A DNA stretch of 64,000 nt from Prevotella sp. (GTDB taxonomy: Bacteria; Bacteroidota; Bacteroidia; Bacteroidales; Bacteroidaceae). Location: positions 1-64,000 of the forward strand of contig JAFZSI010000040.1 of assembly GCA_017619445.1 (NCBI GenBank), read 5' to 3'. Both the position numbers and the translations under genes were made by a program. This document shows, piece after piece, positions 1-63,240 of the stretch (position 1 is its first letter; the number at the start of each line of letters is the position of its first letter). Below the pieces are notes generated by a model. It did no database searches, had not been told where the DNA came from, and saw nothing but the letters and a program-made list of their open reading frames with translations.

Positions 1-3000
1 AGAGGAGAGAGGAGAGAGGAACCCACCCCAGAACCCACCCCAACCCTCCCAAAGGGAGGGAGCGGAAAGGGAGGGAGAAGACAGGGATTGCAAATCCCCT
101 TAAACAGAGGGAGACTGACCGACATTCGCTATATCCGCTGCATCGTAGGACAATGCTCAAACCTCACTTTCACGGCCTCCACCGAAAAGGACAATGACTT
201 GCTGACCGTCAGCATTGCTGACCCCGCCTTTACTTATCTGCGCCCGTTGCTGCGCGAGGGCATGCAACTCAACTTGCTCGACTGCAGAAGAGAGAGGAGA
301 GAGGAGGGAGGAGCGGGGATTGCAAATCCCCTTAAACAGAGAGAGGCTGACGGACTGAAAACGATTATCCCAAGCCTCATCGTGATAGAGCCCGACTTCA
401 TGGTTGACATCAGCAGCATCGCGGCGTGTTTCCAGCCTTACGGCCACCACCCGCTGCTCTACACCGTCAACAGGATGAAGCCAAGACCCAACACGCAGGC
501 CACCCTGCTCGGTAACTTTGCCGGAGCAGCCCTCGACGACATCATCAAATCGTCAGCGGGCGCGTCAACCTCAGCAAGCAGCTACGCGCTCAACAACACC
601 ATCCGCAACAACTTCCGCGACAAGGCCTTAGAGTTCTGCACCTGCATTCCCTTCGATGCTAAGAAGTTCATGGAAGACGCTAAAATGCAGGCCGAGAACC
701 TGCAGCAGACCGTCAGCCAACTGTTCGGCCCCACGGCTCCTTACTCGCGCGACAAGGCAATGCTGGAACCGTCGTTCGTATGCGAGCAGTTGGGCATACA
801 GGGGCGCGTTGACCTGATGACCACCGACATGCGCCTGCTTGTTGAGCAAAAGTCGGGAAGGAATATGAATATTGAAAGAGGAGAGAAGCAGAACGGCGGG
901 CACATGCAGTTAGAGCCTCATTTCGTGCAGCTGTTGCTATACTATGGTGTGCTGCAACACAATTTCCAGTTGGGTAACAACCAGGTGGACATACGGTTGC
1001 TCTACTCGAAATATCCGCCGCAACACGGTCTCGTGGTGGTGTCTTTCTATCAGAAACTGTTTCACGAGGCCATCGCTTACCGCAACCAGATTGTGGCATG
1101 GGAGTTAGGAATGGCGCGCGCTGGCTTTGCAGCCGTCATCGACCGGTTGACGCCCGAAACTCTGAACACGAAGGGCGCAACAGACGGTTTCTACATGCGT
1201 TACCTGCGGCCATCACTTGAAGCAGTAACCAGTCCGCTGCACCGTCTTTCGCCCCTTGAAAAGGCATATTACACCCAGATGATGACGTTCATCTACCGGG
1301 AGCAACGCGTGGAGAAACTCGGTGCACAGGAAGGCTTGAACAACTGCACCGCCGACCTCTGGAACATGCCGCTGAGCGAGAAGCGAGAGACTGGGAACAT
1401 CTTTGTTGGGTTAGGAGTTAGGAGTGAGGAGTTAGGAGTGATGAGTGAGGAGAGAAGAGAGTACTCTGCCCCCGAAACACAGACGGTTGTCTGCCTCTCA
1501 ATCCCCGACCAGGGCGATGATTTCCTGCCCAACTTCCGCCGCGGCGACATGGTTTATCTCTATGCCTACAACGACGAGCCCGATGTGCGCAAAGCCATCC
1601 TGCACAAAGGCGTGATATGCGACTTGCGACCCGACACCATCACGGTAAGCCTCAACAATGCGCAGCACTTAGTCCCCTTTGCACGCTACGCCATAGAGCA
1701 CAGCGGCAGCGATGCCACAATCAACGCAGCCATACGAGGGTTGCACGAGTTTGCCTGCGCACCCCAGGAACGGCGCGACCTGTTGTTAGGCCAGCGGCCA
1801 CCACGCCGTGACACCTCGCTTACCCTCTCGCAAAGCTACAACCCTACCTATGACGACCTGCTGCTGCGCGCCAAACAAGCGCGAGACTTCTTCCTGCTCA
1901 TCGGACCGCCGGGAACGGGCAAGACATCTATGGCCATGCAATACTTGGTGAAAGAGGAACTGACCGGCAACGCCTCCATCCTGCTCACCGCCTACACCAA
2001 TCGCGCAGTGGATGAAATCTGTGCCATGCTGGCCGACAACAACATTGACTTCCTCAGACTGGGCAACGAGCACAGCTGCGACCCGCGCTTCAAACCGTAC
2101 CTGCTCGACAGTCTGTTAGGCGACAGCCCGAAATTAGCGGACATCAACGCCCAACTCGCGGCAAAGACCATCGTGGTGGCAACAACCTCGATGCTGGCAG
2201 CCAAGCCTTTTATCTTCAACCAGAAGCACTTCACCCTGGCCATCGTTGATGAGGCCAGCCAACTGCTCGAGCCCAACATCGTGCCGCTGCTCGCCACCCA
2301 CCGCAACGGACAATGCTGCATAGACCGCTTCATTCTGATTGGCGACCACAAACAACTGCCCGCCGTGGTGCAGCAAAGCGAACTTGACGCGGCCGTCACA
2401 GACCCGTTGCTCCACGCGATAGGTCTGCGCGACTGCAGAAACTCGCTGTTCGAACGGCTGATCATGAGCACGAGCGCCAGCACAGCGCAGGAATCGCCAT
2501 TCGTGGGCTTGCTGCGCCGCCAAGGACGCATGCACCCCGAAGTCGCGGCCTTCCCCAACACCATGTTCTACGCAAAAGAGCAACTCCTGCCCGTGCCCCT
2601 ACCCCATCAGGAAGAAACCACCATCTATCCCTCAACTCCCGCTCTCCGTTCTCCGCTGACCACCCAACGAATGGTCTTCATCCCCTCGGAGTTCTGCACC
2701 CAGCCTTCACTCTCCGACAAGGTGAACATCAGCGAGGCCCGCACCGTTGCCCGCCTGCTGCTGTTCGTCTGCAAACACTATGGCCAGGAGTTCAATCCCT
2801 ATAAAAGCGTCGGCGTAATAGTACCCTACCGCAACCAGATTGCCATGATTCGCCGCGAACTGAAAAAGCTGTTTGAGGAATGTGAAAAGGAAGCCCCCCA
2901 TGTCCTCCCCAGAGGGGGGAGAGAAGGAGAGAAGAAGCCTCCCCTCGGGGAGGTTTGGAGGGAGCCCGGAGAAAGCCTGCTGAACGATGTGTCCATCGAC

Positions 3001-3273
3001 ACCGTGGAGCGTTACCAAGGCTCGCAGCGCGACATCATCATCTATTCGTTTACCGTGCAGCACCCCTATCAGCTGGACTTCCTCACGGCCAACAGCTTCA
3101 CCGACACCGACGGCAGCATCATAGACCGCAAACTCAACGTTGCCCTCACACGAGCACGGAAGCAGACCATCGTGTTGGGCAACGAGCAAGTGCTTTCCGG
3201 CAATCCCATCTTCCGCGCACTCATCAACCACTGCTATCGTCTCCCGACCGAGGACAAAGAGCGAATCCTCTGA
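1..3273 (+). CDS. Dna2-like PD-(D/E)XK nuclease / SF1 helicase, 5' partial
   Basis: The frame is open from the first base, so the true start lies outside the window; the first possible internal start (TTG at 88) lies inside a repeat and is unlikely to be genuine. Counting from base 1, a Cas4/Dna2-type nuclease core is suggested near residues 270-290 by RVDLMTTDMRLLVEQKSG (acidic residues followed by EQK). The helicase follows: Walker A GPPGTGKT near 636, Walker B IVDEASQL near 748, GDHKQLPAV, GRMHPEV, then TVERYQGSQRD near 1001 and NVALTRAR near 1047. It probably acts in cytosolic DNA repair or end processing. Three or four low-complexity segments (about residues 7-35, 95-115, 463-490, 962-990) are encoded by dispersed repeats and keep the frame. 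The helicase assignment is firm; the nuclease assignment is fairly good. Confidence 0.88.
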   Translation, partial: RGERREEPTPEPTPTLPKGGSGKGGRRQGLQIPLNRGRLTDIRYIRCIVGQCSNLTFTASTEKDNDLLTVSIADPAFTYLRPLLREGMQLNLLDCRRERREEGGAGIANPLKQREADGLKTIIPSLIVIEPDFMVDISSIAACFQPYGHHPLLYTVNRMKPRPNTQATLLGNFAGAALDDIIKSSAGASTSASSYALNNTIRNNFRDKALEFCTCIPFDAKKFMEDAKMQAENLQQTVSQLFGPTAPYSRDKAMLEPSFVCEQLGIQGRVDLMTTDMRLLVEQKSGRNMNIERGEKQNGGHMQLEPHFVQLLLYYGVLQHNFQLGNNQVDIRLLYSKYPPQHGLVVVSFYQKLFHEAIAYRNQIVAWELGMARAGFAAVIDRLTPETLNTKGATDGFYMRYLRPSLEAVTSPLHRLSPLEKAYYTQMMTFIYREQRVEKLGAQEGLNNCTADLWNMPLSEKRETGNIFVGLGVRSEELGVMSEERREYSAPETQTVVCLSIPDQGDDFLPNFRRGDMVYLYAYNDEPDVRKAILHKGVICDLRPDTITVSLNNAQHLVPFARYAIEHSGSDATINAAIRGLHEFACAPQERRDLLLGQRPPRRDTSLTLSQSYNPTYDDLLLRAKQARDFFLLIGPPGTGKTSMAMQYLVKEELTGNASILLTAYTNRAVDEICAMLADNNIDFLRLGNEHSCDPRFKPYLLDSLLGDSPKLADINAQLAAKTIVVATTSMLAAKPFIFNQKHFTLAIVDEASQLLEPNIVPLLATHRNGQCCIDRFILIGDHKQLPAVVQQSELDAAVTDPLLHAIGLRDCRNSLFERLIMSTSASTAQESPFVGLLRRQGRMHPEVAAFPNTMFYAKEQLLPVPLPHQEETTIYPSTPALRSPLTTQRMVFIPSEFCTQPSLSDKVNISEARTVARLLLFVCKHYGQEFNPYKSVGVIVPYRNQIAMIRRELKKLFEECEKEAPHVLPRGGREGEKKPPLGEVWREPGESLLNDVSIDTVERYQGSQRDIIIYSFTVQHPYQLDFLTANSFTDTDGSIIDRKLNVALTRARKQTIVLGNEQVLSGNPIFRALINHCYRLPTEDKERIL
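20..112. repeat. Composite repeat: GC-rich dyad plus GGGGATT palindrome module
   Basis: Two AACCCACCCC units, then CCCTCCCAAAGGGAGGG (a dyad), then GGGATTGCAAATCCCC followed by TTAAACAGAG. The same modules in the same order recur at 41744-41910 and 42423-42579. Here they lie in the open frame of the helicase. Confidence 0.85.
285..348. repeat. In-frame purine tract plus GGGGATT palindrome module inside the helicase
   Basis: A GAGAGGAG tract is followed by GGGGATTGCAAATCCCC and TTAAACAGAG, encoding roughly GGAGIANPLKQRE. The core is the same as at 85-110, 41886-41910 and 42555-42579. The flanking protein sequence looks normal, so this is an insertion that kept the frame. Confidence 0.8.
1387..1470. 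repeat. GTTAGGAGT tandem tract inside the helicase
   Basis: Tandem GTTAGGAGT and GTGAGGAG units, encoding GLGVRSEELGVMSEERRE, lie between the nuclease and helicase domains of the first gene and keep the reading frame. Confidence 0.75.
2889..2968. repeat. GC-rich dyad repeat inside the helicase
   Basis: CCTCCCCAGAGGGGGGAG and CCTCCCCTCGGGGAGG are two strong dyads separated by a purine tract. They are translated in frame as a Gly/Arg/Glu-rich loop between helicase motifs. Confidence 0.7.
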
Positions 3274-3480
3274 CAGAGAGTTTTTTGACAGAGAGACAAA
3301 GAGGAGATTCCCCGACAAAGAGGATTTGACAGAGAGACAAAGAGTTGTTGTTGCCAAGCTATGCTTTGTAACAATAACTATTGACTTTGCATATACCAAG
3401 TATCACTTTACGGTCACAACTCATTGCTTTACGCTCAAATTTTCTAGAAAATCTGAACTTAGAACATTACTATGTATTTG
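3274..3480. repeat. Intergenic repeats: ACAGAGAGACAAAGAGG units and TTTTCTAGAAAA inverted repeat
   Basis: The gap after the helicase holds three degenerate units of GACAGAGAGACAAAGAG with GATTCCCC (3273-3345). At about 3408-3465 there is one copy of the intergenic inverted repeat whose core is AAATTTTCTAGAAAAT (3437-3452), flanked by GCTTTACG. No convincing gene is seen from 3274 to 3631. Confidence 0.7.
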
Positions 3481-5923: not shown

Positions 5924-5981
5924 TCTACGCAAAATCCACGCAAAAATAACGTAATAATGCATTCACAAACCGAACGGGCAC

Positions 5982-6045
5982 AAAAAAAAGGGTCTTCGCT
6001 AAGACCCAACCTTTGTTAACCTTAAATCTAATACTATGAAAAACA
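5982..6045 (-). ncRNA. Candidate small RNA with own promoter and terminator
   Basis: On the minus strand TACCTTTG (6051-6058) is a good -7 box. About 40 nt downstream is a strong hairpin GGGTCTTAGCGAAGACCC (5990-6007) followed by eight T residues (5982-5989). Between them is TAGATTTAAGGTTAACAAAG, with no useful reading frame. It lies downstream of dsbD and upstream of the small-gene island. A clear -33 box is not visible. It could instead be a 3' processing product or a terminator of dsbD with a chance -7 box. Confidence 0.45.
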
Positions 6046-8291: not shown

Positions 8292-8470
8292 CCTGTTCTA
8301 TTTTGAATTTACAATTTGACATTTTTTTATGCAGAGCTCAAGGAACTCCAATTTACAATTTATTTGTGCATTTAACAATTTGACAATATATTTAGGAGAA
8401 AAGGAGTGGAGGAGCATATCTCATACCCTCGTACCTCCGTACCCCCGTACCTCCGAAAAAGAGGTTATTG
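8292..8470. repeat. Intergenic mosaic of dispersed repeats
   Basis: In order: AATTTACAATTTGAC tract; GCAGAGCTCAAGGAACTCC module (about 8332-8350); another AATTTACAATTT tract; AGGAGAAAAGGAGTGGAGGAG; then GTACCTCCGTACCCCCGTAC units (8425-8455). The last two modules occur side by side again at 10530-10630 and, inverted, at 28752-28855. Confidence 0.75.
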
Positions 8471-10518: not shown

Positions 10519-10529
10519 GTTTGGAATAT

Positions 10530-10690
10530 AGGAGGAAAGGAGTATAGGAGAAGTTCCTTGAGCGTAGCGAAAAAAGGAGTAAAAGGAGCATATCTCGCAC
10601 CTTCGTACCTCCGAACCCGCGTACCCCCAAAATAGTAAATTGGAGTTCCTTGAGCTCTGCGAAAAAATTGTAAAATTGTAAATAAACAAG
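10530..10690. repeat. Intergenic repeat mosaic between greA and HIT gene
   Basis: AGGAGGAAAGGAGTATAGGAG, then TTCCTTGAGCGTAGCGAAAA, AAGGAGTAAAAGGAGCATAT, GTACCTCCGAACCCGCGTAC, and TTCCTTGAGCTCTGCGAAAA followed by AATTGTAAAATTGTAAAT. The order parallels 8330-8460 and 28718-28855. Confidence 0.75.
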
Positions 10691-12239: not shown

Positions 12240-12335
12240 CCAGAGACTTATCTCCTTTACTTCTTCTCTCCTTTACTCCTTTTCTCCTTTTCTCCTTTAC
12301 TTCTTTTCTCCTTTCTCTCCTTTCCTTCTCAATTC
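12240..12335. repeat. Pyrimidine-rich CTCCTTTACTTCTTTTCTCC tract
   Basis: Imperfect tandem CTCCTTTT/CTCCTTTACT units, the complement of the AAGGAGAAAAGGAG tracts at 8394, 10530 and 43995. It occupies the presumed leader or promoter region of the guanylyltransferase gene. Confidence 0.7.
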
Positions 12336-12787: not shown

Positions 12788-12788
12788 A

Positions 12789-20468: not shown

Positions 20469-21074
20469 ATGAAATACAGAATGGTGAAAGAGAACAGACC
20501 AACGCTGAAGAACTTCGGACGGTGGAAGGCTGTGGCGGTGCACGAGCGGACGGTGGAGACAAGGCAGGTGGTTAGGGAGGTGTGCCGTCGCACGGGGGCT
20601 TCGCGCGGTTCGGTCATGGCGGTGCTGATTGAGCTGGCGGGAGTGGTTAGCGAGCATCTGCGCGAGGGCGACCGCGTGCGGATAGACGATTTTGGACTCT
20701 TGAAACTGGAGATTGAGGGCGAAAAGGTGGATGATGAGGAGTTGGAGATGCTGGAAAAATCCGTGAAATCTGAGAAATCTGTGGTTCGTGGCGTGCGGTT
20801 GCATGTGTTGGCGGAGAGTCGTCACGGGCGGCAGGCGCTCTACGAGGGAATAAAGTATGAAAAAGCGGGAAGGAAAAAAGAAATTAATCCGCAGAGGCCA
20901 AGATGTTCCTCCTCTACCCCATTAACTCCCATCATTCCCATAACTCCCATTACTCCCATTACTCCCATTACTCCCACAACTCCAACAACTCCCATTACCC
21001 CCCACCAGGGGGCAGGGGGGCTCCCCCATCACCTCAACTGGCCCGCTTTGTGCCGTGGCGCAACGATTCTGTAA
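20469..21074 (+). CDS. HU/IHF-like DNA-binding protein with repeat-encoded tail
   Basis: The start MKYRMVKENRPTLKNFGRWK, then TRQVVREVCRRTGASRGSVM and GDRVRIDDFGLLKLEIEG, matches the divergent HU-like (DNABII) proteins common in Bacteroidales; residues about 1-125 form this domain. From about residue 148 the frame runs through tandem ACTCCCATT units and a GC-rich repeat, giving a TPITPITPIT tail and a further 25 residues, so the natural C-terminus was probably near residue 145. The DNA between 20341 and 20445 carries periodic GTAAC motifs that could be an autoregulatory array. Confidence 0.75.
   Translation: MKYRMVKENRPTLKNFGRWKAVAVHERTVETRQVVREVCRRTGASRGSVMAVLIELAGVVSEHLREGDRVRIDDFGLLKLEIEGEKVDDEELEMLEKSVKSEKSVVRGVRLHVLAESRHGRQALYEGIKYEKAGRKKEINPQRPRCSSSTPLTPIIPITPITPITPITPTTPTTPITPHQGAGGLPHHLNWPALCRGATIL
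20920..21032. repeat. Tandem ACTCCCATT units and GC-rich dyad at 3' end of HU-like gene
   Basis: About eight 9-bp units of ACTCCCATT/ACTCCCACA are followed by CCCCCACCAGGGGGCAGGGG. These overlap the end of the reading frame. Confidence 0.8.
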
Positions 21075-21161: not shown

Positions 21162-22340
21162 ATGAGACTTAAAAAATCCACAATCTTTATGCTGTTTATG
21201 GCCATGCCCGCTATGATTCTGGCTGTGGCAGTCTTCGCGTCGTGCGGCGAGGAAAAGCAGCGGAAACAAGAAGCGGCCCAACACAAGACGATGGTGGTGA
21301 GCCGGAAGGATATGACACTCGAACGTCAATATAGTGCTCGGCTCACGGGCCGGCAGATTGTGGAGGTGCGCCCGCAGGTGTCGGGCTGCATCACACGCAT
21401 CCTGACAGGCGAAGGCAAGGCTGTGCGCAAGGGACAAACGCTGTTCGTGATAGACCAGGTGCCCTACCGTGCTGCCCTTCAGGTGGCCGTGGCTGCCCGT
21501 AAGAGTGCGGAGGCACGGTTGGCCACGGCACGCATGAACTACAAGAACGAGAAACTGCTGCAGCAGGGACAAGTGGTTGGCGACGTGTCGGTAGAGACGA
21601 TGCGCAACGCGCTGCTCGAGGCCGAGGCAGCATTGGCGCAGGCCAGGGCACAGGAGGTAAACGCCCGCAACAACCTGAGCTACACCAATGTGAAAAGTCC
21701 CGTAAATGGAGTGGCTTCGATGATTCCCTGGCACGTAGGGTCGCTGGTCAGCAGCAGCATCAGCGAGCCCTTGGTGACGGTGGCCGACGACTCGGAAGTA
21801 TATGTGTATTTCAGCATCAGCGAGAACCAGGCGCTCGACCTCATCAGCCAGTATGGCTCCATTGCAGCGTTCATCAACCGCGCACCCTCGGTGAGTCTTC
21901 GCCTGAACAACGGGCAGATGTACAATCTGAAAGGCCGCATCAGTGCCGTCAGCGGCACAGTGGATTCGCAGACTGGTGCCGTCACACTGCGAGCCACCTT
22001 CCCCAACTCGGGCGGACTGCTGCATCACGGCGGCAGTGCCACGGTGGTGGTGCCCACACACCGTCAGCAATGCATCGTCATCCCCCAGGAGGCCACCTAC
22101 GAGTTGCAGAACCGCATGTTCGTCTATCGTGTGGTCAACGGCAAGACCAAGGCTACGCCGGTCACGCTGTTCCCCCAGAACAACGGAAAGGAATTTATCG
22201 TGGAGGACGGCATCAGCGAGGGTGACACCATCATCGCCGAGGGTGCCGGACTGCTGAAAGACGGTGTAGATGTCAATGGAGGAGCAAAGGAGGAAGGAAA
22301 AAAGAGGAGAGAGGAGAGAGGAGCGAGGAGAGAGAAATGA
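21162..22340 (+). CDS. RND efflux periplasmic adaptor (AcrA/MexA family)
   Basis: The start MRLKKSTIFMLFMAMPAMIL ends in a lipoprotein-type signal (VFASCGEE). The body shows the split biotinyl-lipoyl motif (VEVRPQVSGCITRILTGEGK, then YTNVKSPVNGVASMIPWHVG), a helical hairpin between (about 100-165) and beta-barrel segments (EPLVTVADDSEVYVYFSISE). It links the inner-membrane permease to an outer-membrane channel. The last 20 residues (AKEEGKKRREERGARREK) are encoded by a GAGAGGAG purine repeat that reaches the 4-nt ATGA overlap with the permease gene. No outer-membrane factor gene follows in this window. Confidence 0.9.
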   Translation: MRLKKSTIFMLFMAMPAMILAVAVFASCGEEKQRKQEAAQHKTMVVSRKDMTLERQYSARLTGRQIVEVRPQVSGCITRILTGEGKAVRKGQTLFVIDQVPYRAALQVAVAARKSAEARLATARMNYKNEKLLQQGQVVGDVSVETMRNALLEAEAALAQARAQEVNARNNLSYTNVKSPVNGVASMIPWHVGSLVSSSISEPLVTVADDSEVYVYFSISENQALDLISQYGSIAAFINRAPSVSLRLNNGQMYNLKGRISAVSGTVDSQTGAVTLRATFPNSGGLLHHGGSATVVVPTHRQQCIVIPQEATYELQNRMFVYRVVNGKTKATPVTLFPQNNGKEFIVEDGISEGDTIIAEGAGLLKDGVDVNGGAKEEGKKRREERGARREK

Positions 22341-23584: not shown

Positions 23585-23656
23585 AGGCTGGAAAAAAGAG
23601 AAGAGATGAAAGAGGAGAGAGGAGAGAGAATAGAAAAAGTTCAAAGTTCAAAGAGG
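23585..23656. repeat. Purine and AAAGTTCAAAG repeat causing the permease frameshift
   Basis: GAAGAGATGAAAGAGGAGAG, AGGAGAGAGAATAG and AAAGTTCAAAGTTCAAAG. The same AAAGTTCAAAGTTCAAA tract occurs at 25640-25657. Confidence 0.8.
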
Positions 23657-23660: not shown

Positions 23661-25499
23661 ATGGTCGAGGACGCCATGCACAACATCACTTCTGCTCTCA
23701 TCACCACTACACTTGTGTTCATGGCCGTTTTCGTGCCCGTCTGTTTCATCGGCGGAGTGACGGGAACGTTTTACACTCAGTTTGGACTCACCATGGCCAT
23801 TGCCGTGGCCATCTCGCTGTTCAACGCACTGACATTGTCGCCCGCCTTGAGTGCCATCATCATGCGCGACTCAAAGCCAAACCGATTCCAAGCAGGTTTC
23901 AATCGTAGGTTTAAGTCGTTCGCCGACCGCTACAAGGGCGCTGTTGCAGGCTTCACCCGTCGCAAAGGCCTTGCAGCCATCCTCGTTGTCGTTGCACTTG
24001 TTGCCCTCGGCTGGATGATGAAAACCACCAGGACCGGCCTCGTGCCCAACGAGGACATGGGCACCGTGTTCATCAATGTGCAGGCTTCACCGGGCAGCAG
24101 CCTGCAGCAGACTTACAGCATACTGAAAGAGGTGGAGAAGCGCATCAAAGACCTGCCGCAGCTGCGCATCTACTCGCTCATTGCCGGCAACAGCAACAAC
24201 TTCGAGCAGTCGTCATCAAACGGAAACTTCACGCTGAAACTGAAGAAATGGAGTGAGCGCAAAGGCAAGGGTGACGACGTGCAGAGCGTGGTTGAGGAGA
24301 TTTACCGCCGCACCGCTGACATTGCCAATGCCAAGATTCAGGTGAACACACAGAACATGCTGCCGGGCTTCGGTCGCATCAACGGCTTTGAGCTGCACGT
24401 GCAAGACAAGCACGGCGGCACCATCGACCAGCTGCTCGACTATACCAACCAACTCATCGCCGCCCTCAACGAACGCCCCGAGATTGGACGCGCCTACACC
24501 AACTTCTCGCTGAAGTACCCACAGTACCGTGTGGAGGTGGATGCCGCCCTGTGCAAGCGTCGCGGCGTGTCGCCTACCGATGTGCTCTCTGCCCTCAGCG
24601 GATACGTCGGCGGCAACTACGCCTCCAACTTCGTGCGCTTCACCAAGCTCTACCGCGTCATGGTGCAAGCCTCGCCCGAATACCGCCTTGACACCGAGTC
24701 GCTCAACAACATCTTCGTCAAGACCAGCAGCGACGAGATGTCGCCCATCGGCCAGTATCTCACCCTGACACGCGTCTATGGCTCCGAGACACTCTCGCGC
24801 TTCAACCTCTTCCCCAGCATCAATGTCGGAGGAACCGCCGCCGAGGGCTATAGCAGCGGCCAGGCCATCGATGCCATCCGCGAGACAGCCGCCGAGGTGC
24901 TGCCCGAGGGCTACGGCTACGAGTTTGGCGGCATGACACGCGAGGAAGCATCCGCCCAGAACACCACTGCCCTCGTCTTCGTCATCTGCATCGTCTTCAT
25001 CTACCTCATCCTCTGCGCCCTCTACGAGAGTCTGCTCATCCCCCTCGCCGTCATCCTCAGCGTGCCCTTCGGCCTGGCAGGCTCGTTCCTCTTCGCATGG
25101 CTCTGGGGACTGGAGAACAACATCTACATGCAGACAGGACTCATCATGCTCATCGGACTGCTCTCAAAAACCGCCATCCTGCTGACCGAATACGCCACCA
25201 CGCGCCGTCGTCAGGGCTTAGGAATCATTGAGGCCGCCCTCGATGCAGCCGCAGTGCGACTGCGACCCATCCTGATGACCTCCATGACCATGGTGTTCGG
25301 CCTGCTGCCCCTCGCCCTCGCCACTGGAGTCGGAGCCAACGGCAACCATTCGCTCGGCGTGGGAACCATCGGAGGCATGGTCATCGGAACAATAGCCCTC
25401 CTGTTCATTGTCCCCGTCCTCTTCGTCATCTTCCAAACCTTAGAGGAACGGATGCAAGGGAAGGGGTGGAAAAAAGAGGAGAGAAGAGAGAGGAGTTAG
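23661..25499 (+). CDS. C-terminal half of split RND permease
   Basis: This frame could be translated separately from ATG 23661, which is preceded by GAGGGG. It begins MVEDAMHNITSALITTTLVF and holds TM5-TM6, the second periplasmic porter domain (about residues 120-450) and TM7-TM12 (LILCALYESLLIPLAVILSV; GLLSKTAILLTEYA). It overlaps the out-of-frame extension of the upstream half, which ends at 23908. Whether two half-permeases could assemble is unknown. The tail (GKGWKKEERRERS) is again read from purine repeat. Confidence 0.7.
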   Translation: MVEDAMHNITSALITTTLVFMAVFVPVCFIGGVTGTFYTQFGLTMAIAVAISLFNALTLSPALSAIIMRDSKPNRFQAGFNRRFKSFADRYKGAVAGFTRRKGLAAILVVVALVALGWMMKTTRTGLVPNEDMGTVFINVQASPGSSLQQTYSILKEVEKRIKDLPQLRIYSLIAGNSNNFEQSSSNGNFTLKLKKWSERKGKGDDVQSVVEEIYRRTADIANAKIQVNTQNMLPGFGRINGFELHVQDKHGGTIDQLLDYTNQLIAALNERPEIGRAYTNFSLKYPQYRVEVDAALCKRRGVSPTDVLSALSGYVGGNYASNFVRFTKLYRVMVQASPEYRLDTESLNNIFVKTSSDEMSPIGQYLTLTRVYGSETLSRFNLFPSINVGGTAAEGYSSGQAIDAIRETAAEVLPEGYGYEFGGMTREEASAQNTTALVFVICIVFIYLILCALYESLLIPLAVILSVPFGLAGSFLFAWLWGLENNIYMQTGLIMLIGLLSKTAILLTEYATTRRRQGLGIIEAALDAAAVRLRPILMTSMTMVFGLLPLALATGVGANGNHSLGVGTIGGMVIGTIALLFIVPVLFVIFQTLEERMQGKGWKKEERRERS

Positions 25500-25688
25500 G
25501 AAATTTACAATTTGACAATTTTTTCGCGGAGCTCAAGGAACTCCAATTTACAATTTATTTTGGCATTTAACCAATTTACAATTTCTCATTTGTCCGCTAA
25601 CTCCCGCTAACTCCCGCTAACTTCCGATAACTCCTTTATAAAAGTTCAAAGTTCAAAAGGAGAAGGGAGAGGATTCCCTTAAACAGAG
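25500..25688. repeat. Intergenic repeat mosaic after RND operon
   Basis: AATTTACAATTTGACAATTT, TTCGCGGAGCTCAAGGAACT, CTAACTCCCGCTAACTCC units, AAAGTTCAAAGTTCAAAAGG, and a partial palindrome module (GGATTCCCTTAAACAGAG). Confidence 0.75.
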
Positions 25689-25732
25689 ACAAAGCCCTGA
25701 CTTGCAGATTTGCTGAGTCAGGGCTTTGTTCT
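25689..25732. terminator. Bidirectional terminator between RND operon and carboxylesterase
   Basis: A perfect 12-bp stem CAAAGCCCTGAC and GTCAGGGCTTTG, with the arms separated by 14 nt, lies 20 nt after the convergent esterase stop. Confidence 0.7.
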
Positions 25733-27304: not shown

Positions 27305-27321
27305 ATAATTATTTTTTTAGG

Positions 27322-27512
27322 GAGTTAATGGGAGTTAACGGAAGTTATCGCGGTCTGAGACCGCTCAGGGAGTTAACGGACGAATGAAAAATTATCGATT
27401 ACTTCCCTCCTTTACTCAATAATTGTAAATTGGAGTTCCTTGAGCTCCGCGAAAAAATTGTCAAATTGTAAATTATTTCTTGAGCTTTGAACTTTGAACT
27501 TTTATAAAGAAG
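27322..27512. repeat. Intergenic repeats with GCGGTC hairpin element
   Basis: GGAGTTAACGG units flank GTTATCGCGGTCTGAGACCG with CTCAGGGAGTTAACGGAC (27344-27381), nearly identical to 39025-39062. They are followed by TTCCTTGAGCTCCGCGAAAA (27433), AATTGTCAAATTGTAAATT and AGTTAGCGGG units. Confidence 0.8.
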
Positions 27513-28682: not shown

Positions 28683-29243
28683 TTCGCTATTTTACGATTT
28701 CACAATTTTACAATTGTCAATTGGGGAGTCCTTGAACTCTGAGAAAAGTAGATTCGGAGGTGCGAAGGTACGAGATATACTTCTTCTCTCCTTTTTTCGC
28801 TACGCTCAAGGAACTCCTCCTCTACTCCTCTACTCCTTTTCTCCTTTTCTCCCCAATTTTCGAGGTTTTATTGTGGTTGGTTTACAAAAATAACAAATAA
28901 TCGCTATTGTCATCCATCCTTTTGATTTAATCTGCCCAATTATATATTTTTTTAACTATTTATGGCAGGTTTGTATTATTTTTTAGCTTTATTTGTTTCA
29001 TTGATACATTTGGGAAGAAAACAAATACATGGCCTTGCCCCGCTTCGCAATCCACTCCGTATATTTGCATACGAAAAAGCGGATAGATACCAGAAAACAT
29101 CCTAAAAAGCGACACAATACCATAATATTTTCAATTTGAGATAATTGGCAATTGTCAATTTTTTAATTTTCAATTTACGTTTATCTCTGCTCCAAAAGAA
29201 ACTAAGTACATTTAATATTATTTATCAACCAATCAAAGACCAG
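28683..29243 (+). promoter_or_regulatory. Divergent regulatory region of the xylan locus
   Basis: This 561-nt gap holds repeats at 28683-28860 (GGAGTCCTTGAACTCTGAGA; GGAGGTGCGAAGGTACGAG; CTCCTCTACTCC). A minus-strand -7 box TATTTTTG (28885-28892) faces the regulator. A plus-strand -7 box TATATTTG (29060-29067) lies 177 nt before the SusC start. The AT-rich DNA from 28893 to 29040 is the likely regulator-binding zone; no clear inverted or direct operator pair was found. Confidence 0.55.
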
Positions 29244-38989: not shown

Positions 38990-39165
38990 CTGAATTATTC
39001 ATGGAGTTATCTGGAGTTAACTGAAGTTATCGCGGTCTGCGACCGCTCAGGGAGTTAACTGACAATACTCTGGCTATTGTCCGCTAACTTCCGTTAACTC
39101 CCGATGAATTCGCAGAATTCATATAACTCCAGATAACTCCCGTGAATAATATAAGTAATTGAAAA
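38990..39165. repeat. GGAGTTAAC repeats with GCGGTC hairpin inside the xus operon
   Basis: GGAGTTATCTGGAGTTAACT leads into GTTATCGCGGTCTGCGACCG with CTCAGGGAGTTAACTGAC (39025-39062), then CTAACTTCCGTTAACTCCCG and ATAACTCCAGATAACTCCCG. The GCGGTC/GACCGC hairpin could partly terminate or stabilise mRNA between xusD and xusE. Confidence 0.8.
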
Positions 39166-41743: not shown

Positions 41744-41910
41744 GTGGTGTTGGAACCCACCCCAGCCCTCCCAAAGGGAGGGAGTAAAATTGTTAAATTG
41801 TTAAATGAAGAAATAAATTGTAAATTGTTAAATTGTCAAGTTGTAAATATTGTTAGGTGTTAGGTGTTGGGAGGAACAGAGGCGGTGATTGCAAATCCCC
41901 TTAAACAGAG
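41744..41910. repeat. Composite repeat of about 165 bp, left copy flanking the LMW-PTP gene
   Basis: The order is GGTGTTGGAACCCACCCCAG, CCCTCCCAAAGGGAGGGAG, AAATTGTTAAATTGTTAAAT, AATAAATTGTAAATTG, GTTAGGTGTTGGGAGGAACA, then GATTGCAAATCCCCTTAAAC. It ends 22 nt before the phosphatase start. Confidence 0.9.
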
Positions 41911-41931: not shown

Positions 41932-42465
41932 ATGACAGAGAAAGGTAAGGTGACACGGGTTTTGTTCGTTTGTCTTGGCAACATCTGCCGCTCTCCGGCT
42001 GCGGAGGGCATTATGAGGCAGATGGCGGAGGAGCATGGCATGGGCCATCGCTTCTTCATTGACTCGGCGGGCATTGGCAGCTGGCACGTGGGTCAGTTGC
42101 CCGACCGGCGTATGCGCCGCCACGGCGAGCGTCACGGTTATCGGTTTGAGAGCCGCGCACGGCAGTTCAGCATGGCCGACTTCGCGCGCTTCGACCTCAT
42201 CGTGGGAATGGACGAGGAGAATGTGGCGGACCTGATGGCCATGGCAAGGACGGAGGACGATGCCAAAAAGATTCGCTGCATGAAGGACTATTTGGTGAAC
42301 CATCCGCACCTGCGCTCGGTTCCCGACCCTTATTATGGGGGCGACAGGGATTTCGAACTGGTGATTGAACTGCTGGAGGACGGTTGCGCCGAATTGATTC
42401 GGAAGGAAGGAGCCCCCGAAGGGGGTGTTAGAACCCACCCCAGCCCTCCCAAAGGGAGGGAGTAA
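41932..42465 (+). CDS. Low-molecular-weight protein-tyrosine phosphatase
   Basis: The protein starts MTEKGKVTRVLFVCLGNICR, with the active-site P-loop CLGNICRS (nucleophile Cys near residue 14), and has the general acid in VPDPYYGGDRDFE near residue 130. It dephosphorylates tyrosine residues, in bacteria often of capsule-export kinases. The native protein should end near CAELIRKE; the last 18 or so residues (GAPEGGVRTHPSPPKGRE) are read from the composite repeat at 42423-42579. The gene sits exactly between two direct copies of that repeat. Confidence 0.9.
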   Translation: MTEKGKVTRVLFVCLGNICRSPAAEGIMRQMAEEHGMGHRFFIDSAGIGSWHVGQLPDRRMRRHGERHGYRFESRARQFSMADFARFDLIVGMDEENVADLMAMARTEDDAKKIRCMKDYLVNHPHLRSVPDPYYGGDRDFELVIELLEDGCAELIRKEGAPEGGVRTHPSPPKGRE

Positions 42466-42579
42466 AATTGTTAAATTGTTAAATGAAGAAATAAATTGTA
42501 AATTGTAAATTGTCAAATTGTAATTATTGTTGGGTGTTGGGAGGAATAGAGGCGGGGATTGCAAATCCCCTTAAACAGA
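42423..42579. repeat. Composite repeat, right copy flanking the LMW-PTP gene
   Basis: The same modules in the same order and orientation as 41744-41910, with few differences: GGTGTTAGAACCCACCCCAG to GGGGATTGCAAATCCCCTTA and AACAGA. The first 43 bases are coding for the phosphatase tail. Confidence 0.9.
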
Positions 42580-42682: not shown

Positions 42683-42705
42683 CAGAATCAATCTAAACAA
42701 TCGTC

Positions 42706-43947
42706 ATGAAAAAAGCTTTTTTTCTTGTTTTTACCCTCTTGCTGGCTGTAAACGCCATGGGAAAAGCGCCCCTGCTCCCCGGTGGGGAGAATGAGAAGTG
42801 GACAACGACTTGGGCCACTGCTCCAGAGTTTACGGGCAAGGGCGACATGCCGCAGACTGCTACGCTGACGGGCAATGCGCTGCGACAAATCATCCACGTG
42901 TCGTTCGGTGGCAATCAGTTGCGCATGCAGCTTTCCAATGAGTTCAGCCGCGAGCCTGTTGAGATTAAATCGATTTATATTGCCGACCTGGCAGCTGACG
43001 CACAGGGCCGTAACGACGCACCGGGCACCGACTATACTGCCATCGTGAAGAAAACGGTGCGCTACCTGACGTTCAACGGCAAGCGCAGCGTCACCATCGA
43101 GCCGGGCAAGGCCATCTTCTCGGACATCACGAAATTCAACCTGCGGCCTCTGCAACGCTTGTCGGTGACCGTCAACTACGGCGAGACGCCCAAGAATGCA
43201 ACGTCGCACCGTGGCTCGCGCACTACAAGCTACATCATGAGCGGCGAGGCTAAGCCTGGGAAGAAATTCGAAACCATTGAGAAGCTCGACCACTGGTACA
43301 ACATTGCAGCCATCGACGTGTTGGGCACGGGCAACGAGTGCATTGCGGCCATTGGCAATTCAATCACCGACGGCCGCGGCACCACCACCAACCTGCAGAA
43401 CCGCTGGACCGACATAGCCAGCGAGCAGCTGCAGAACATCGGCGTGGTGAACCTGGGCATCGGCGGCAACTGCGTGTTGGCTGGTGGACTGAGCGAGCCT
43501 GCCGTGAAGCGCTTCGACCGCGACGTGCTGAGCCAGCGTGGTCTGACGGCTGTCATTGTGTATGAGGGCATCAACGACATCGGAGGCGCTGCCGGCCGTT
43601 GCGAGCAGGTGGCCAAAGACATGATTGAGGCTTACAAAACCTTTGCCCAGAAAGCCCACGACCGCGGACTGAAAATCTATATGGCCACCATCCTGCCTTT
43701 CGGCAAATGTTTCTACGACGACGGCAACCTGTTCAAGGAGGCCGCACGGCAGACCATAAACCAGTGGATTCGCACCAGCAAGGACATTGACGGTGTGATT
43801 GACTTCGACCAGCTGATGCGCGACCCCGAAAACCCCAGCCAGTTGCGCGAGGAACTGCAGGAAGACTGGCTGCACCCCAATGCAAAGGGCTACAAGGTGA
43901 TGGGCGATTTCGCGGCAAAGGAGATAATGAGACTGAAGGGGGAGTAA
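42706..43947 (+). CDS. Secreted SGNH/GDSL-family esterase (probable acetyl-xylan esterase)
   Basis: The start MKKAFFLVFTLLLAVNAMGK is a signal peptide. An N-terminal beta domain (about 25-195) precedes the SGNH domain: block I AAIGNSITDGRG (nucleophile Ser near residue 223), block II NLGIGGNCVL, block III YEGINDIGG, and block V DWLHPNAKGYKVM with the Asp-His pair. It is likely periplasmic or secreted. Heading an operon with a GPH symporter, GH10 and GH43 suggests removal of acetyl groups from xylan or xylo-oligosaccharides, which is inference. Confidence 0.88.
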   Translation: MKKAFFLVFTLLLAVNAMGKAPLLPGGENEKWTTTWATAPEFTGKGDMPQTATLTGNALRQIIHVSFGGNQLRMQLSNEFSREPVEIKSIYIADLAADAQGRNDAPGTDYTAIVKKTVRYLTFNGKRSVTIEPGKAIFSDITKFNLRPLQRLSVTVNYGETPKNATSHRGSRTTSYIMSGEAKPGKKFETIEKLDHWYNIAAIDVLGTGNECIAAIGNSITDGRGTTTNLQNRWTDIASEQLQNIGVVNLGIGGNCVLAGGLSEPAVKRFDRDVLSQRGLTAVIVYEGINDIGGAAGRCEQVAKDMIEAYKTFAQKAHDRGLKIYMATILPFGKCFYDDGNLFKEAARQTINQWIRTSKDIDGVIDFDQLMRDPENPSQLREELQEDWLHPNAKGYKVMGDFAAKEIMRLKGE

Positions 43948-44035
43948 AGGAGTAAAGTCATTTACAATTTGACAATTTACAATTTACAATTTAAAAAGGA
44001 GTAAAGGAGAAAAGGAGAAAAGGAGGGGGCTGAAG
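43940..44035. repeat. Intra-operon AAGGAGTAAAGG and AATTTACAATTT repeats
   Basis: GGAGTAAAGGAGTAAAG, then TTTACAATTTGACAATTTAC, then GGAGTAAAGGAGAAAAGGAG. They separate the esterase and symporter genes. Confidence 0.7.
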
Positions 44036-50906: not shown

Positions 50907-50915
50907 CCAAACGTC

Positions 50916-52379
50916 ATGATTTTCCACCCTATTCATAGCGACATAAAGCCGCCTGCGGCCATGAACAATCCGTTTGATTATGAGCCTCATCCGCTGTGCA
51001 AGATGGCGGCAGACGAGGTGCGGCACTTTCTTGCATCAGACGCTGTGTGCGAGACTGATGCAAGAAACGGCAAGATGTTTGGGGTTTTGGTGGTGGAAAC
51101 GGGCGAAGGAGCGACGGGATTCTTGGCCGCTTACTCGGGATTGTTGGCTGGGCGCAACGACTGGGCGTGGTTTGTGCCGCCAGTGTTCGACGCGCAACAG
51201 CCCGACGGACATTTCAAACAGACGGAACGCCAGATTTCAGCCATTAACAGGATGATTGAGGAGCGGGGAGTCCCCCCTACAACCCACCCAAGCCCTCCCA
51301 AAGGGAGGGAGAGGGGAGATTCCTTTGAACAAAGGAGCGAAGAAGAGATTGAAGGCCTGCGGCAACAGCGCAAGCGCATGTCCGAGGAGCTTCAGCGGTG
51401 GTTGTTCAGTCAGTATGTGATGCTCAACGCACAGGGCGAGTGGAAAGACCTCATTGAGATTTGGCACGACTACCACACCTCGCCCCGGTTGCGCAGCCGC
51501 TTCCCTTTGCCGCCTGGCGGCAGCGGCGACTGCTGTGCGCCTAAGCTGCTACAGTATGCCTTTTTGCACGGACTGAAACCGCTGTGCATGGCTGAGTTCT
51601 GGTATGGCGCGTCGCCAAAGACAGAAATCCGCCATCACGGTCACTACTATCCGGCTTGCCGGGGCAAATGCCTGCCCATACTGACGTTTATGCTCAAAGG
51701 GCTTGTACCTTCGATAGCCTCGGTAACGATAGCAGGGGCCCCTTCAGTTGCCGTGTTGCCCGAGCCCACCGTAGTTTATGACGACGATTGGCTGGCGGTT
51801 GTGAACAAGCCCGCTGGAATGCTGTCGGTGCCGGGCAAAGAGCAGCAACATTGTGTTTTCACCGCCATGCGTGCGCGTTTTCCCGAAGCTGACGGCCCGC
51901 TGATGGTGCACCGGCTCGACATGGCCACCTCTGGGCTGATTGTCATTGCCAAGTCGAAGGCGGTTCACAAACTGCTACAACAGCAGTTCAGCGAGTGGGA
52001 AGTGAAAAAACGCTATGTGGCAGTGGTTGAAGGGGTGCCCGCCAAGCGCAGCGGCACCATTGAGCTGCCCTTATGTCCCAATCCGCTGGACCGTCCGCGG
52101 CAAATGGTGGATGCGAAGATAGGGAAGACGGCGACAACACGCTTTGAGGTAACAATGGTAAAAGGTACGCGCGCACGTGTGAACCTGTATCCACTGACGG
52201 GACGCACCCACCAGCTGCGCGTTCACTGCGCCCACCCCGACGGTCTGGGCTGTCCCATTGTGGGCGACGGGCTTTATGGCACGCGCGGCGACCGTCTGCT
52301 GCTGCATGCCGCTGAAATCAGCTTTACGCATCCGATTACGGGTCAGCCCATTGACATTACCGTCGAACCCGAATTTTGA
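50916..52379 (+). CDS. RluA-family pseudouridine synthase with N-terminal extension
   Basis: The catalytic domain (about 285-480) has VVNKPAGMLSVPGKEQQH, the active-site block VHRLDMATSGLIVIAKSK (catalytic Asp), KKRYVAVVEG and LTGRTHQLRVHCAHPDG. The N-terminal part (about 1-265) has GDCCAPKLLQYAFLHGLKPL and a Cys in YYPACRGKC and is seen in a Bacteroidetes subgroup of RluA proteins. It isomerises uridine in rRNA or tRNA. ATG 50916 lies 10 nt after the -7 box, so the mRNA is nearly leaderless. Residues about 118-140 (PPTTHPSPPKGRERGDSFEQ) are a repeat-encoded insertion. Confidence 0.88.
   Translation: MIFHPIHSDIKPPAAMNNPFDYEPHPLCKMAADEVRHFLASDAVCETDARNGKMFGVLVVETGEGATGFLAAYSGLLAGRNDWAWFVPPVFDAQQPDGHFKQTERQISAINRMIEERGVPPTTHPSPPKGRERGDSFEQRSEEEIEGLRQQRKRMSEELQRWLFSQYVMLNAQGEWKDLIEIWHDYHTSPRLRSRFPLPPGGSGDCCAPKLLQYAFLHGLKPLCMAEFWYGASPKTEIRHHGHYYPACRGKCLPILTFMLKGLVPSIASVTIAGAPSVAVLPEPTVVYDDDWLAVVNKPAGMLSVPGKEQQHCVFTAMRARFPEADGPLMVHRLDMATSGLIVIAKSKAVHKLLQQQFSEWEVKKRYVAVVEGVPAKRSGTIELPLCPNPLDRPRQMVDAKIGKTATTRFEVTMVKGTRARVNLYPLTGRTHQLRVHCAHPDGLGCPIVGDGLYGTRGDRLLLHAAEISFTHPITGQPIDITVEPEF
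51267..51336. repeat. GC-rich dyad plus GATTCC module inside RluA gene
   Basis: CAACCCACCCAAGCCCTCCC with AAAGGGAGGGAGAGGGGAGA and TTCCTTTGAACAAAGG: the composite order seen at 20-112 and 41744-41910, here in frame. Confidence 0.8.
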
Positions 52380-57432: not shown

Positions 57433-57464
57433 TTTGCTTGTTGAGCCTTTTTTCCTTACCTTTG
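57433..57464 (+). promoter_or_regulatory. PagL-like gene promoter
   Basis: TTTG (57433-57436), a 20-nt spacer and TACCTTTG (57457-57464), 17 nt before the ATG at 57482. Confidence 0.8.
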
Positions 57465-57481
57465 CCGCCAATAACGCAAAA

Positions 57482-58702
57482 ATGACCATCACACTACGCA
57501 GGACAACCTTGTTGGCTGCACTCGCCATGCTCTGCACAGCGGCAAGTGCACAACGCGACAGCATCATCCACCGCATTGAAGCCGAGGTGCTGCCGTCGGT
57601 CATTTTGCATACCAACGAATATCTGAAGGGTGACAATCCAGAGATTCGCACCATGAATCACGCGTTCTCGGCAAGGCTGAAATACGGCTTCATGAAATCG
57701 CCCGAAACGCGCGACGGGCAGCTGTATAAAGGTGCCTATCAGGGTGTTGGCGTGGCGTGGCACGAATTCAACCCCCAACTGCACAACCCGTTCTCGGCGT
57801 TCATCTATCAGGGAGCCACCATCAAGAGGCTCAATCCCCGAGTAGCCGTGAACTACGAATGGAACTTGGGCGTAACCTTCGGATGGAATCCCTACAATGC
57901 CGACACCAACCCCGACAACCGTGTCATCGGCTCGAAAGTGACCGCTTATATTGACGCAGATTTCTATCTGAACTGGCGGCTGAGCAGTCATTTTGACATC
58001 AATGCCGGCGTGTCGTTCTCGCATTTTTCAAACGGCAACACCCAGCTTCCCAACAGCGGCCTCAACATAGCCGGCCTGAAAGTGGGAATTGTTTATCGGA
58101 CAAACGGAGGTGAATCCAACACCCAACACCCAACACCCAATAACCAACACCCAACAACCAACACCCAACACCCAAACAACCAAACGACCAAACGACCAGA
58201 CGACCAACACCCAACACCCAACTCTCAAATCCACACCGACATTGTGGCTTTCGGCGCATGGAAACGCATGGCCTATCTGAGCACGGAAGGCGTGGGCAAC
58301 GTGCCTGCCTCGTTTGCCGTGGGCGGCCTCAACATCAACCCGCTTTACCGCGTGAACCACTTGTTCAACGCTGGCCTTTCGCTCGACTTGCTCTACGACC
58401 ACAGTGCCAACATCATCTATGACGACAAGACGCAAGAAATCACCTATCCCAGCACTTGGAATCAGATGGCAGCGGGACTGTCGGCCCGTGCCGAGCTTGT
58501 GATGCCCTACTTCACCATCAACATGGGCCTGGGTCACCATTTGCTGCACGCCAAAGGCCATCTGAGCGGATGGTACGAGGTGCTGGCCCTGAAAACCAAG
58601 CTCACAGACCGCCTGTTCCTACACATCGGCTACAGTCTGGTTGACTTTAAGAGTCCCAACCACCTGATGCTCGGAATGGGCGTGAGGATAGGAAAAATCT
58701 GA
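57482..58702 (+). CDS. PagL-like lipid A deacylase / acyloxyacyl hydrolase family
   Basis: The start MTITLRRTTLLAALAMLCTA is a signal peptide cut after AASAQ. The rest alternates as an outer-membrane barrel, with PagL-type catalytic residues in FSHFSNGNTQLPNSGLNIAG (His-x-Ser) and a C-terminal strand ending GMGVRIGKI. Such enzymes remove an acyl chain from lipid A at the outer membrane. Residues about 210-248 (NTQHPTPNNQHPTTNTQH and similar) are a repeat-encoded Asn/Gln/Thr/Pro insertion just after the strand following the active site, probably in a loop. The frame is kept. Confidence 0.8.
   Translation: MTITLRRTTLLAALAMLCTAASAQRDSIIHRIEAEVLPSVILHTNEYLKGDNPEIRTMNHAFSARLKYGFMKSPETRDGQLYKGAYQGVGVAWHEFNPQLHNPFSAFIYQGATIKRLNPRVAVNYEWNLGVTFGWNPYNADTNPDNRVIGSKVTAYIDADFYLNWRLSSHFDINAGVSFSHFSNGNTQLPNSGLNIAGLKVGIVYRTNGGESNTQHPTPNNQHPTTNTQHPNNQTTKRPDDQHPTPNSQIHTDIVAFGAWKRMAYLSTEGVGNVPASFAVGGLNINPLYRVNHLFNAGLSLDLLYDHSANIIYDDKTQEITYPSTWNQMAAGLSARAELVMPYFTINMGLGHHLLHAKGHLSGWYEVLALKTKLTDRLFLHIGYSLVDFKSPNHLMLGMGVRIGKI
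58113..58228. repeat. CCAACAC/CCAAACGA tandem tract inside the PagL-like gene
   Basis: Repeated CAACACCCAACACCCAATAA-type units change into CCAAACGACCAAACGACC and return to CAACACCCAACACCCAAC. The regulator gene at 28353-28435 carries the reverse complement. The tract is read in frame. Confidence 0.88.
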
Positions 58703-59635: not shown

Positions 59636-59712
59636 ACACTATTTACAATTTGACAATTGACAATTTACAATATATCTCCCTCCCTTTGGGAGGGCTGGGG
59701 GTGGGTTCCACC
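59636..59712. repeat. AATTTACAATTTGAC tract and inverted GC-rich dyad at helicase start
   Basis: TTTACAATTTGACAATTGAC and then ATCTCCCTCCCTTTGGGAGG with GCTGGGGGTGGGTTCC (the dyad family in reverse orientation) occupy the place where the helicase start codon is expected. Confidence 0.85.
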
Positions 59713-61569: not shown

Positions 61570-61692
61570 CCGTTTCCGCAAAACAACGCTTTACGGAAAC
61601 AAACCTGCACTTTACAATCATAAAGCATCACTTTACGAACACAAAGCGATGCTTTACGACAAAATTCTCTAGAAAATTTGAGCATAATTCGC
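61570..61692. repeat. Intergenic inverted repeat, fourth locus
   Basis: GCTTTACGGAAACAAAC, ATCATAAAGCATCACTTTAC, GAACACAAAGCGATGCTTTA then CGACAAAATTCTCTAGAAAA and TTTGAGCATAAT. The core at about 61660-61680 matches the elements at 3437, 41467, 41573 and 50625. Confidence 0.8.
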
Positions 61693-63115: not shown

Positions 63116-63119
63116 ATAT

Positions 63120-63240
63120 TCATGGAGTTATCGGGCAAAGGAGGAACCCACCCCAACCCTCCCAAAGGGAGGGAGAGAAATTGTCAAATTGTAAAATTGT
63201 GAAATTGTAAATAGTAAATTGTCAAATTGTAAATAGTGTT
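63120..63240. repeat. Intergenic repeat mosaic
   Basis: ATTCATGGAGTTATCGGGC, GAACCCACCCCAACCCTCCC with AAAGGGAGGGAG, then tandem AATTGTCAAATTGTAAAAT units. Confidence 0.8.

Follow-up and report, generated by a model that had tools for sequence, protein, structure and literature searches.

The closest described systems to the repeat islands reported here, which lie in gaps and genes across 64,000 nt of a Prevotella sp. genome (positions 1–64000 of contig C45, hereafter the window, from a 2.87 Mb assembly of 81 contigs which is 85% complete), are palindromic elements and tandem arrays of several kinds. The Rickettsia palindromic elements are palindromic repeats found in frame in genes, and the heptameric tandem repeats of cyanobacteria are known as STRR. 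Arrays of the heptamer TAACTGA have been reported from Beggiatoaceae, Cyanobacteria and five Bacteroidetes (PMC4679880) and of GGGNATC from Xanthomonas and Nostoc (PMC4692102); heptamer arrays are over-represented in bacteria without an evident mechanism of spread (PMC4679880, PMC4692102), and slippage was proposed in earlier work cited in PMC4692102. Among the transposases associated with repetitive extragenic palindromes (REP), the REP-associated tyrosine transposases (RAYTs), subclass 2.6 (RAYT group 5, Bacteroidetes) is described with the motif YIH[QN]NP and 'atypical secondary structures' (PMC6006769). The miniature inverted-repeat transposable element (MITE) BrickBuilt of Porphyromonas gingivalis has 23-bp minisatellite units, IS5-like terminal repeats and tetranucleotide duplications, and lies between genes in every case and is for the most part conserved from one strain to another (PMC4596501), and the enterobacterial RU-1, RU-2 and RU-3 repeats found in genes are MITE-like single elements of 103–168 bp (PMC2759123).

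The Prevotella islands resemble each of these in part. Like the heptamer arrays, they include dispersed and mainly intergenic 7-bp tandem arrays, but here many degenerate unit families (7, 8 and 10 bp) occur together, are joined to hairpins and invade coding regions. As in REP/RAYT systems there are small, many-copy palindromes which are mostly intergenic, some in inverted pairs, and one type (K, below) lies beside RAYT genes; the differences are that there is no GTAG foot, several hairpin families are present per genome and are embedded in tandem arrays, some copies are in frame within unrelated proteins, and no canonical RAYT gene was found in the islands' own assembly. BrickBuilt is likewise a Bacteroidales combination of tandem repeats with inverted-repeat elements, but its 23-bp units, terminal repeats, duplications, intergenic-only placement and conservation were not seen here (in a comparison that stopped short of the ends of the M element). 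The RU repeats are also small mobile repeats supplying protein segments, whereas the islands are mosaics of 20–40 bp hairpins and arrays, and a comparison of general features only with the Rickettsia elements shows several unrelated modules, mostly intergenic and with no evident frame preference. Bacterial short tandem arrays have long been known without a mechanism of dispersal, and here they are nested with RAYT-type hairpins within one genus. Heptamer arrays and REP/RAYT elements are each known separately and the nested combination is new, with no publication on nested hairpin–array islands in Prevotella or Bacteroidetes found among titles and abstract openings (a search for the most part outside the subscription literature). 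We propose that the islands are genomic parasites specific to this lineage, in which two kinds of element interact, hairpins and tandem arrays, and consider that this reading has an even chance of being right.

Module types and their abundance

The islands mix two kinds of part, small REP-like hairpins (K, J, M and part of I) and tandem arrays with degenerate units of 7, 8 and 10 bp (the letters A–K, M, Q and T are labels coined in the present analysis). The 7-bp array modules are A (AGAGGAG), Q (AGGAGTT), C (CCAACAC) and G (AAAGTTC), with B of 7 or 8 bp (AATTTAC/AATTTGAC), D (CCAAACGA), E (GTACCTCC) and H (AAAAGGAG) having 8-bp units, and F (TAACTCCCGC) a unit of 10 bp. J consists of a foot, AACCCACCCC, and a hairpin, CCCTCCCAAAGGGAGGG, K (GGGGATTGCAAATCCCCTTAAACAGAG) contains the palindrome GGGGATTGCAAATCCCC followed by the tail TTAAACAGAG, I is GRAGTKCCTTGAGC-N3-GCGAAAAAA, and M is GCGGTC-N3-GACCGC. 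In DNA folding, a 3-nt loop is closed by a stem of 7 bp in J, K and the B-type I and of 6 bp in M; only 1–2 of 200 shuffled sequences fold as well as J and K do.

An original prediction made from the window had listed many short modules recurring in varied combinations in both gaps and genes, and all of those it named are present, with six exact sites for CCCTCCCAAAGGGAGGG, four sites for GGGGATTGCAAATCCCC (≤1 mismatch), five exact sites for GAGCTCAAGGAACTCC and 15 matches to AATTTACAATTTGAC (≤2 mismatches). They are also common genome-wide, with 91 copies of J (≤1 mismatch), 17 of K with TTAAACAGAG (≤2 mismatches) and 50 of I (≤1 mismatch), compared with 0, 0 and 1 for the reversed-sequence patterns used as controls (this control is invalid for the GAGAGGA module, as the heptamer read backwards is nearly itself, giving 19 vs 21). 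In the window and 400 kb from elsewhere in the genome there are 178 islands, of which 54 combine two or more types (a count which includes the separate T family described below). The many module types, their varied combinations in gaps and genes and the contrast drawn in the prediction with a single Rickettsia palindromic element are borne out. That the modules follow the same order is true in part: of 748 short self-matches, 41 combine B with J and 22 combine B with I (340 have none of the scored words), and a 116-bp A–B–F composite has a second copy on another contig with 97% identity, but order and ends vary among the composites.

Arrays with periods of 6–11 bp identified by Tandem Repeats Finder (TRF) account for 21.4 bp/kb in the window and 13.7 bp/kb in 400 kb taken from other parts of the genome, compared with 0.0 and 0.6 bp/kb in one Markov control for each. 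TRF found 371 arrays (consensus 6–12 bp) in 864 kb of own DNA, with 161 having 7-bp and 98 having 8-bp units, a pattern of dispersed arrays biased towards 7-bp units like that of the STRR and TAACTGA kind. There are 40–58 arrays per 100 kb in the islands' own genome and 34 in G215, the closest congener found and the one used for synteny, compared with 5–17 in seven of eight other congeners and 40 in the eighth, G004 (stretches of 12–20 kb each).

A universal heptamer lexicon was considered and dropped, since Q heptamer hits compared with the reversed control are unlike between genomes (1 vs 237 in Symploca, 0 vs 244 in Desulfonema, 372 vs 5 in G215 and 38 vs 56 in our genome) and each seems to own its words; any hit at all was obtained in 13 of 32 genomes. 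The C heptamer array is found in many phyla (at least 114 stretches), and 80 stretches selected for C (552 kb) hold 209 arrays with 7-bp units, 86 of C-type and 123 of other types. We note that Q arrays in G215 also form inverted pairs 80–110 bp apart, at about five places or more among the matches listed (e.g. C12:2319–2500). A phage origin of the islands was rejected when the searches of phage records and viral contigs were both empty: window 41380–42700 had no match in 50,697 phage records, and the 21-base I–B junction was in no viral contig and had no exact match in a genome contig collection, with own-genome records possibly left out of all three collections.

Lineage-specific islands in gaps and genes

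The islands are fast-changing and lineage-specific, and G215, the nearest sampled relative, is likewise filled with islands but at other places or with other repeats. DNA alignment shows own islands absent from G215 in two gaps, at a gene start and inside a gene, and G215 islands absent from our genome were likewise seen. In the gap at 10.5 kb, G215 lacks the I–H–E–I–B island (10521..10683; coordinates are followed by the strand where one is assigned) and is ~100 bp shorter, and in the gap at 12.2 kb the H octamers (CTCCTTTA/CTCCTTTT; 12247..12323, −) correspond to 79 bp absent from G215. At 59.6 kb an island of B, J and foot (59640..59708) replaces the start region seen in G215 for the helicase gene 59650–61554, and at 51.3 kb J with its foot (51281..51309, +) is in frame in the RluA-type synthase gene 50904–52379, which has 42 extra nt (14 codons) compared with G215. 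Synteny blocks covering 85,238 own bases hold 26 own and 14 G215 islands (9-bp arrays were left out here and in the placement count below), and in each genome five of them face an island of a different type ≤60 bp away, a number close to that which could arise if islands in both genomes were confined to gaps. Two own entries and one of G215 reached an identity of at least 0.6, and these are a conserved 10-bp coding repeat in each genome and a 14-bp piece of I judged to be misaligned, and no other island was conserved in the 85 kb. Island turnover is nearly complete between two species whose orthologous window proteins are about 63–91% identical.

The original prediction would have failed had relatives carried the segments as ordinary conserved protein sequence or had the modules been rare elsewhere in the genome, but relatives are without them at the same places and the modules are common elsewhere. 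The converse reading of conserved coding sequence or an assembly artefact might draw on the fragmented 81-contig assembly and on the two 10-bp repeats counted as islands which are conserved coding sequence, but the segments are absent from relatives and J is also found in the one-contig genome G016 (10 copies), and we regard its probability as close to negligible.

With genes called by a home-made gene finder (596 genes in the 864 kb), 185 of 263 islands (70%) are intergenic, 27 lie over a gene end and 51 (19%) are within predicted genes, where random placement would give 15% intergenic, 9% at gene ends and 76% in genes, an approximately 4-fold depletion of in-gene islands. Insertion into genes is nevertheless confirmed, and the prediction that modules lie in at least nine genes of the window, for the most part in frame, is reasonable once gene ends are counted; internal in-frame inserts were seen in four genes (a helicase, the response regulator, the RluA-type synthase and the PagL-like gene), and the modules of the remaining genes form terminal extensions. 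A preference for genes or for frame was not borne out, given the depletion in genes and a gene which changes frame at a tract (below). By reading of the tract list, in-gene tracts are mostly of the stop-free types A, C, D, J, K and Q, which is what would remain if insertion were random and selection followed, and steering of insertion into frame is not supported; selection suffices, with the survivors being in frame, and may be the source of the in-frame bias. Flanking reading frames yield no clean figure for this bias because true in-gene islands are mixed with operon junctions: for 258 own islands, 28 were in frame and open, 23 had flanks differing in frame, 11 had the same frame with a stop and 196 were not coding on both sides, compared with 116, 3, 2 and 142, respectively, for 263 random places.

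The helicase (gene 88–3273) has three extra segments compared with 13 congeners which could be aligned in frame, of 29. The first is a run of A heptamers with a K hairpin (286..341, +) and is longer than in all 13, although some of these relatives also vary in length here; the second is made of Q heptamers (AGGAGTG/AGGAGTT, VRSEELGVMSEERREYS; 1410..1452, +); and the third, of ~32 residues with approximate ends (2875..2979, +), is J-like by reading and absent from the 13. A helicase of the window is 72–73% identical to those of the congeners G076 and G184 and also of Prevotella sp. UBA4341 and the uncultured Prevotellaceae RUG571, with only a remote match to Prevotellaceae RUG12193. In the response regulator (27513–28682), an A–I–B–C–D–C tract is in frame before the receiver domain (28355..28514, −). 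In the PagL-like protein (57434–58702) the insert is an in-frame C–D–C tract within a loop (58116..58222, +). The same loop has an A-type insert in G215 and is short in 28 other aligned congeners; when 398 genomes of the genus (own included) were searched with the protein, the best match was that of G215. Frames continuous through the inserts in these four genes, and a loop with unrelated inserts in two species, are what might be expected of a system like the Rickettsia palindromic elements, with an element selected for in-frame gene insertion and adding peptides to proteins. However, in-gene islands are depleted, the peptides vary with module and frame, and a tract in one gene marks a change of frame, and we consider such a system very unlikely. 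The islands also show that proteins in this Bacteroidales lineage continue to gain new loops, linkers and ends.

Hairpin families, RAYT genes and nesting in arrays

Using the cut-off of NCBIfam NF047646, RAYTs were identified in five congeners (G066, G034, G215 and G184, four of 12 genomes searched, and G296, G066 and G215, three of 41). Palindromes with the K core, GGATT-N3-AATCC, adjoin the RAYT gene in G066, G215 and G296 (e.g. CCTGCGGATTTGCAATCCGCAGG upstream of the gene in G296), and a near variant, GAATT-TGC-AATTC (GGCGAATTTGCAATTCGCC and the like), is found on both sides of the gene in G034. The RAYTs beside K-type palindromes have the tyrosine motifs YIHQNP, YLHQNP and YIHNNP, and from the agreement with the motif given in PMC6006769 they probably belong to subclass 2.6. 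K has these palindromes beside RAYT genes in congeners as well as multiple dispersed copies, as REPs do, and was present in three of 60 genomes, own included. A second kind of RAYT, below the cut-off, was noticed in G077 and G296 (loci L354 and L365), where GGACATAATTCATTATGTCC palindromes flank the gene with GTAG before one side; no GTAG/CGTC tag was found in the flanks of J (AACCCACCCC), K (TTAAACAGAG) and I (GCGAAAAAA) read by eye.

J is patchily distributed and in bursts: our genome included, 52 of the 299 surveyed in the genus have it, 11 of them with at least 10 copies, and the reversed control gave 0–1. In this survey there were 78 copies in our genome, 122 in G077, 56 in G019, 36 in G176, 25 in G167, 23 in G215, 22 each in G206 and G296, 12 each in G152 and G237, and 10 in G016. 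It has both the high-copy hairpin and the inverted pairs of a REP, with pairs in our genome and in G215, where they are 77–78 bp apart at three places, and we refer to J as REP-like rather than REP because no RAYT gene was found flanked by it. For I, there was no more than one near-match per genome in 99 congeners.

I, J and M cluster with the arrays, as an array lies within 60 bp of 25 of 32 I copies, 25 of 41 J copies and 10 of 13 M copies, compared with two of 89 T copies and ~9% of random places. I is conserved over 26 positions (0–25) and hardly outside these (the 45 hits listed include ~12 coding look-alikes). When 30 strict copies were typed by hand-made rules using few bases, both immediate flanks could be assigned in 19 and were always of one type (10 B–B, 7 H–H and 2 F–F, with none mixed; among the B flanks, one is formed by the tail of a neighbouring copy of I), and the other 11 had one side or none typed. 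By reading, I replaces 2–5 nt without target duplication, and in paralogous F elements it takes the position of TTAA, with GGAG on one side and CGG on the other. This suggests that the arrays came first and that I entered them later.

We propose that one kind of parasite would consist of several tiny REP-like hairpin families, with the RAYT/TnpA-REP of congeners the likely cognate of K, while J, M and I are placed here on the basis of their shape. A Y1 HUH nuclease probably copies the hairpins via single-stranded DNA, evidence for which is confined to the gene–palindrome link of K in congeners, and J, M and I may be transposed in the same manner. The alignments suggest that hairpins land in arrays without target duplication, the arrays serving as landing sites; island turnover is fast. 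The second kind, the degenerate 7-, 8- and 10-bp arrays, would grow and diverge by slippage and recombination and be copied along as mosaics, a step we infer from the degenerate units and from composites such as that of 116 bp at 97% identity on two contigs. Selection would then remove most in-gene copies, as the depletion in genes supports, leaving islands to persist between genes and in the loops, linkers and ends of proteins.

A number of observations weigh against this proposal. J was found at none of 14 RAYT or RAYT-like loci (12 scanned by pattern and two, L314 and L315, read by eye, of 19), with one J ~1.4 kb away (L365), and RAYT was rejected as a predictor of J as it is present in seven of 11 J-rich and 10 of 30 J-free genomes. 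The RAYT of G184 is different and without K-type palindromes, and in G004, array-rich in its one 20-kb stretch, the RAYT model matched only a 152-aa IS200-like protein. No canonical RAYT was found in our 85% complete genome, from which the gene may have been lost or in which it may lie in the missing 15%; a RAYT-like open frame of 414 codons gave a partial family match of 38.3 bits (as typed protein) against the cut-off of 80, and contains a TGTTGTGACTCAGTCACAACA palindrome as well as a 9-bp array. Only three of nine K copies lie within 60 bp of an array, and two of the 13 counted M hits look like chance coding matches. The folding of I is not better than that of shuffled sequences for the H-type (z 0.07) and weakly better for the B-type (z −1.1), the results for M differ between two strands of the element (z −1.1 and −2.5), and in two H-flanked I copies the right side turns from H to B further out.

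An explanation without any transposase, in which replication slippage makes the arrays and microhomology template switching copies pieces of array and hairpin, is possible but doubtful. The predominance of 7- and 8-bp units (259 of 371 arrays) and the variable ends of the composites are in keeping with it, as are the replacement of TTAA by I in the F array when paralogous copies are compared, and the way in which I, by reading, meets the B, H and F arrays in phase, with a shared G on the left, a shared A-run on the right and no target duplication. It does not sit well with I being bounded at 26 bp across unrelated contexts, some free of arrays, with the K-type palindromes adjoining RAYT genes, or with the inverted J pairs at three places in G215, an arrangement like that of REP pairs. 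The A-run, 6 nt long in 25 of 30 I copies, and the short repeated units could also point to the reverse-transcribed or telomerase-like addition of short templated repeats, but reverse transcription, which had been put forward earlier as one possible mechanism, is unlikely given that RVT_1 had no match in our 85% complete genome, and we regard templated addition of this sort as extremely improbable.

A single decayed MITE-like composite transposon, spread by an insertion-sequence transposase in the manner of BrickBuilt, is suggested by the 164-bp composite found twice around one open reading frame (ORF) with 92% identity, by the 116-bp composite with its 97% identical copy on another contig, and by M elements of ~150 bp with inverted F arrays. 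However, order and ends differ among copies, insertions are nested, no common ends were found among the copies compared, and J is found on its own in 52 of 299 genomes, so that we judge a common transposon to be unlikely. It is equally improbable, in our estimation, that the two kinds of repeat form a coupled system in which HUH-processed single-stranded hairpins seed the surrounding arrays and then reinsert, the arrays being products of transposition and not of slippage; were this true, it would be a self-reinforcing engine adding new peptide segments to proteins.

Remaining features of the window

The contig starts with A heptamers, the foot AACCCACCCC (twice), a J hairpin and a K hairpin with its TTAAACAGAG tail (1..109, +). 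Further intergenic islands are B–I–B–E (8305..8455, +), H–B–H arrays (43941..44025, +) and foot–J–B (63145..63234, +), and an island of B, E, I and H lies upstream of the response regulator gene (28681..28852). F decamers with the M hairpin (GCGGTCTGAGACCGC) are followed by I–B–G–F (27320..27540, −), and a second M hairpin has F decamers on both sides in inverted orientation (39002..39109). The composite found around an ORF (41932–42465) has the order C–foot–J–B–C–K before it (41746..41909, +) and a second copy at its end (42424..42579, +; 92% identity over 164 columns).

Among the gene ends, a 9-bp array (CCCATTACT) encodes the C-terminal tail of an HU-HIG protein (20918..21002, +), and A heptamers lie at the C-terminus of an HlyD-type adaptor (21162–22340; 22303..22334, +). 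The gene which changes frame, encoding an RND permease (efflux pump), does so at an A and G (AAAGTTC) tract (23595..23653, +); the locus may be variable or the gene a pseudogene, or the assembly may be wrong at this point. A–B–I–B–F decamers–G and a partial K tail run from the C-terminus of the permease into the gap (25475..25690, +).

The T family, a palindrome around AAATTTTCTAGAAAATTT, is separate from the other modules, with 89 copies in the 864 kb and five in the window (3437–3454, 41468–41485, 41574–41591, 50625–50642 and 61662–61679). The copies are often flanked by degenerate 21-bp units, and neighbours are often 85, 106 or 127 bp apart, in 21-bp steps; at 41437–41657, a 106-bp tandem duplication holds a T element and its 21-bp units. 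A larger tandem duplication of 420 bp (39844–40640, 93% identity) lies within ORF 39166–41061. Finally, window 5980–6046 on the minus strand matches FopS, a Bacteroidetes family of paralogous small RNAs (Rfam RF04319, 77 bits), and has an 85% identical stretch in G215.

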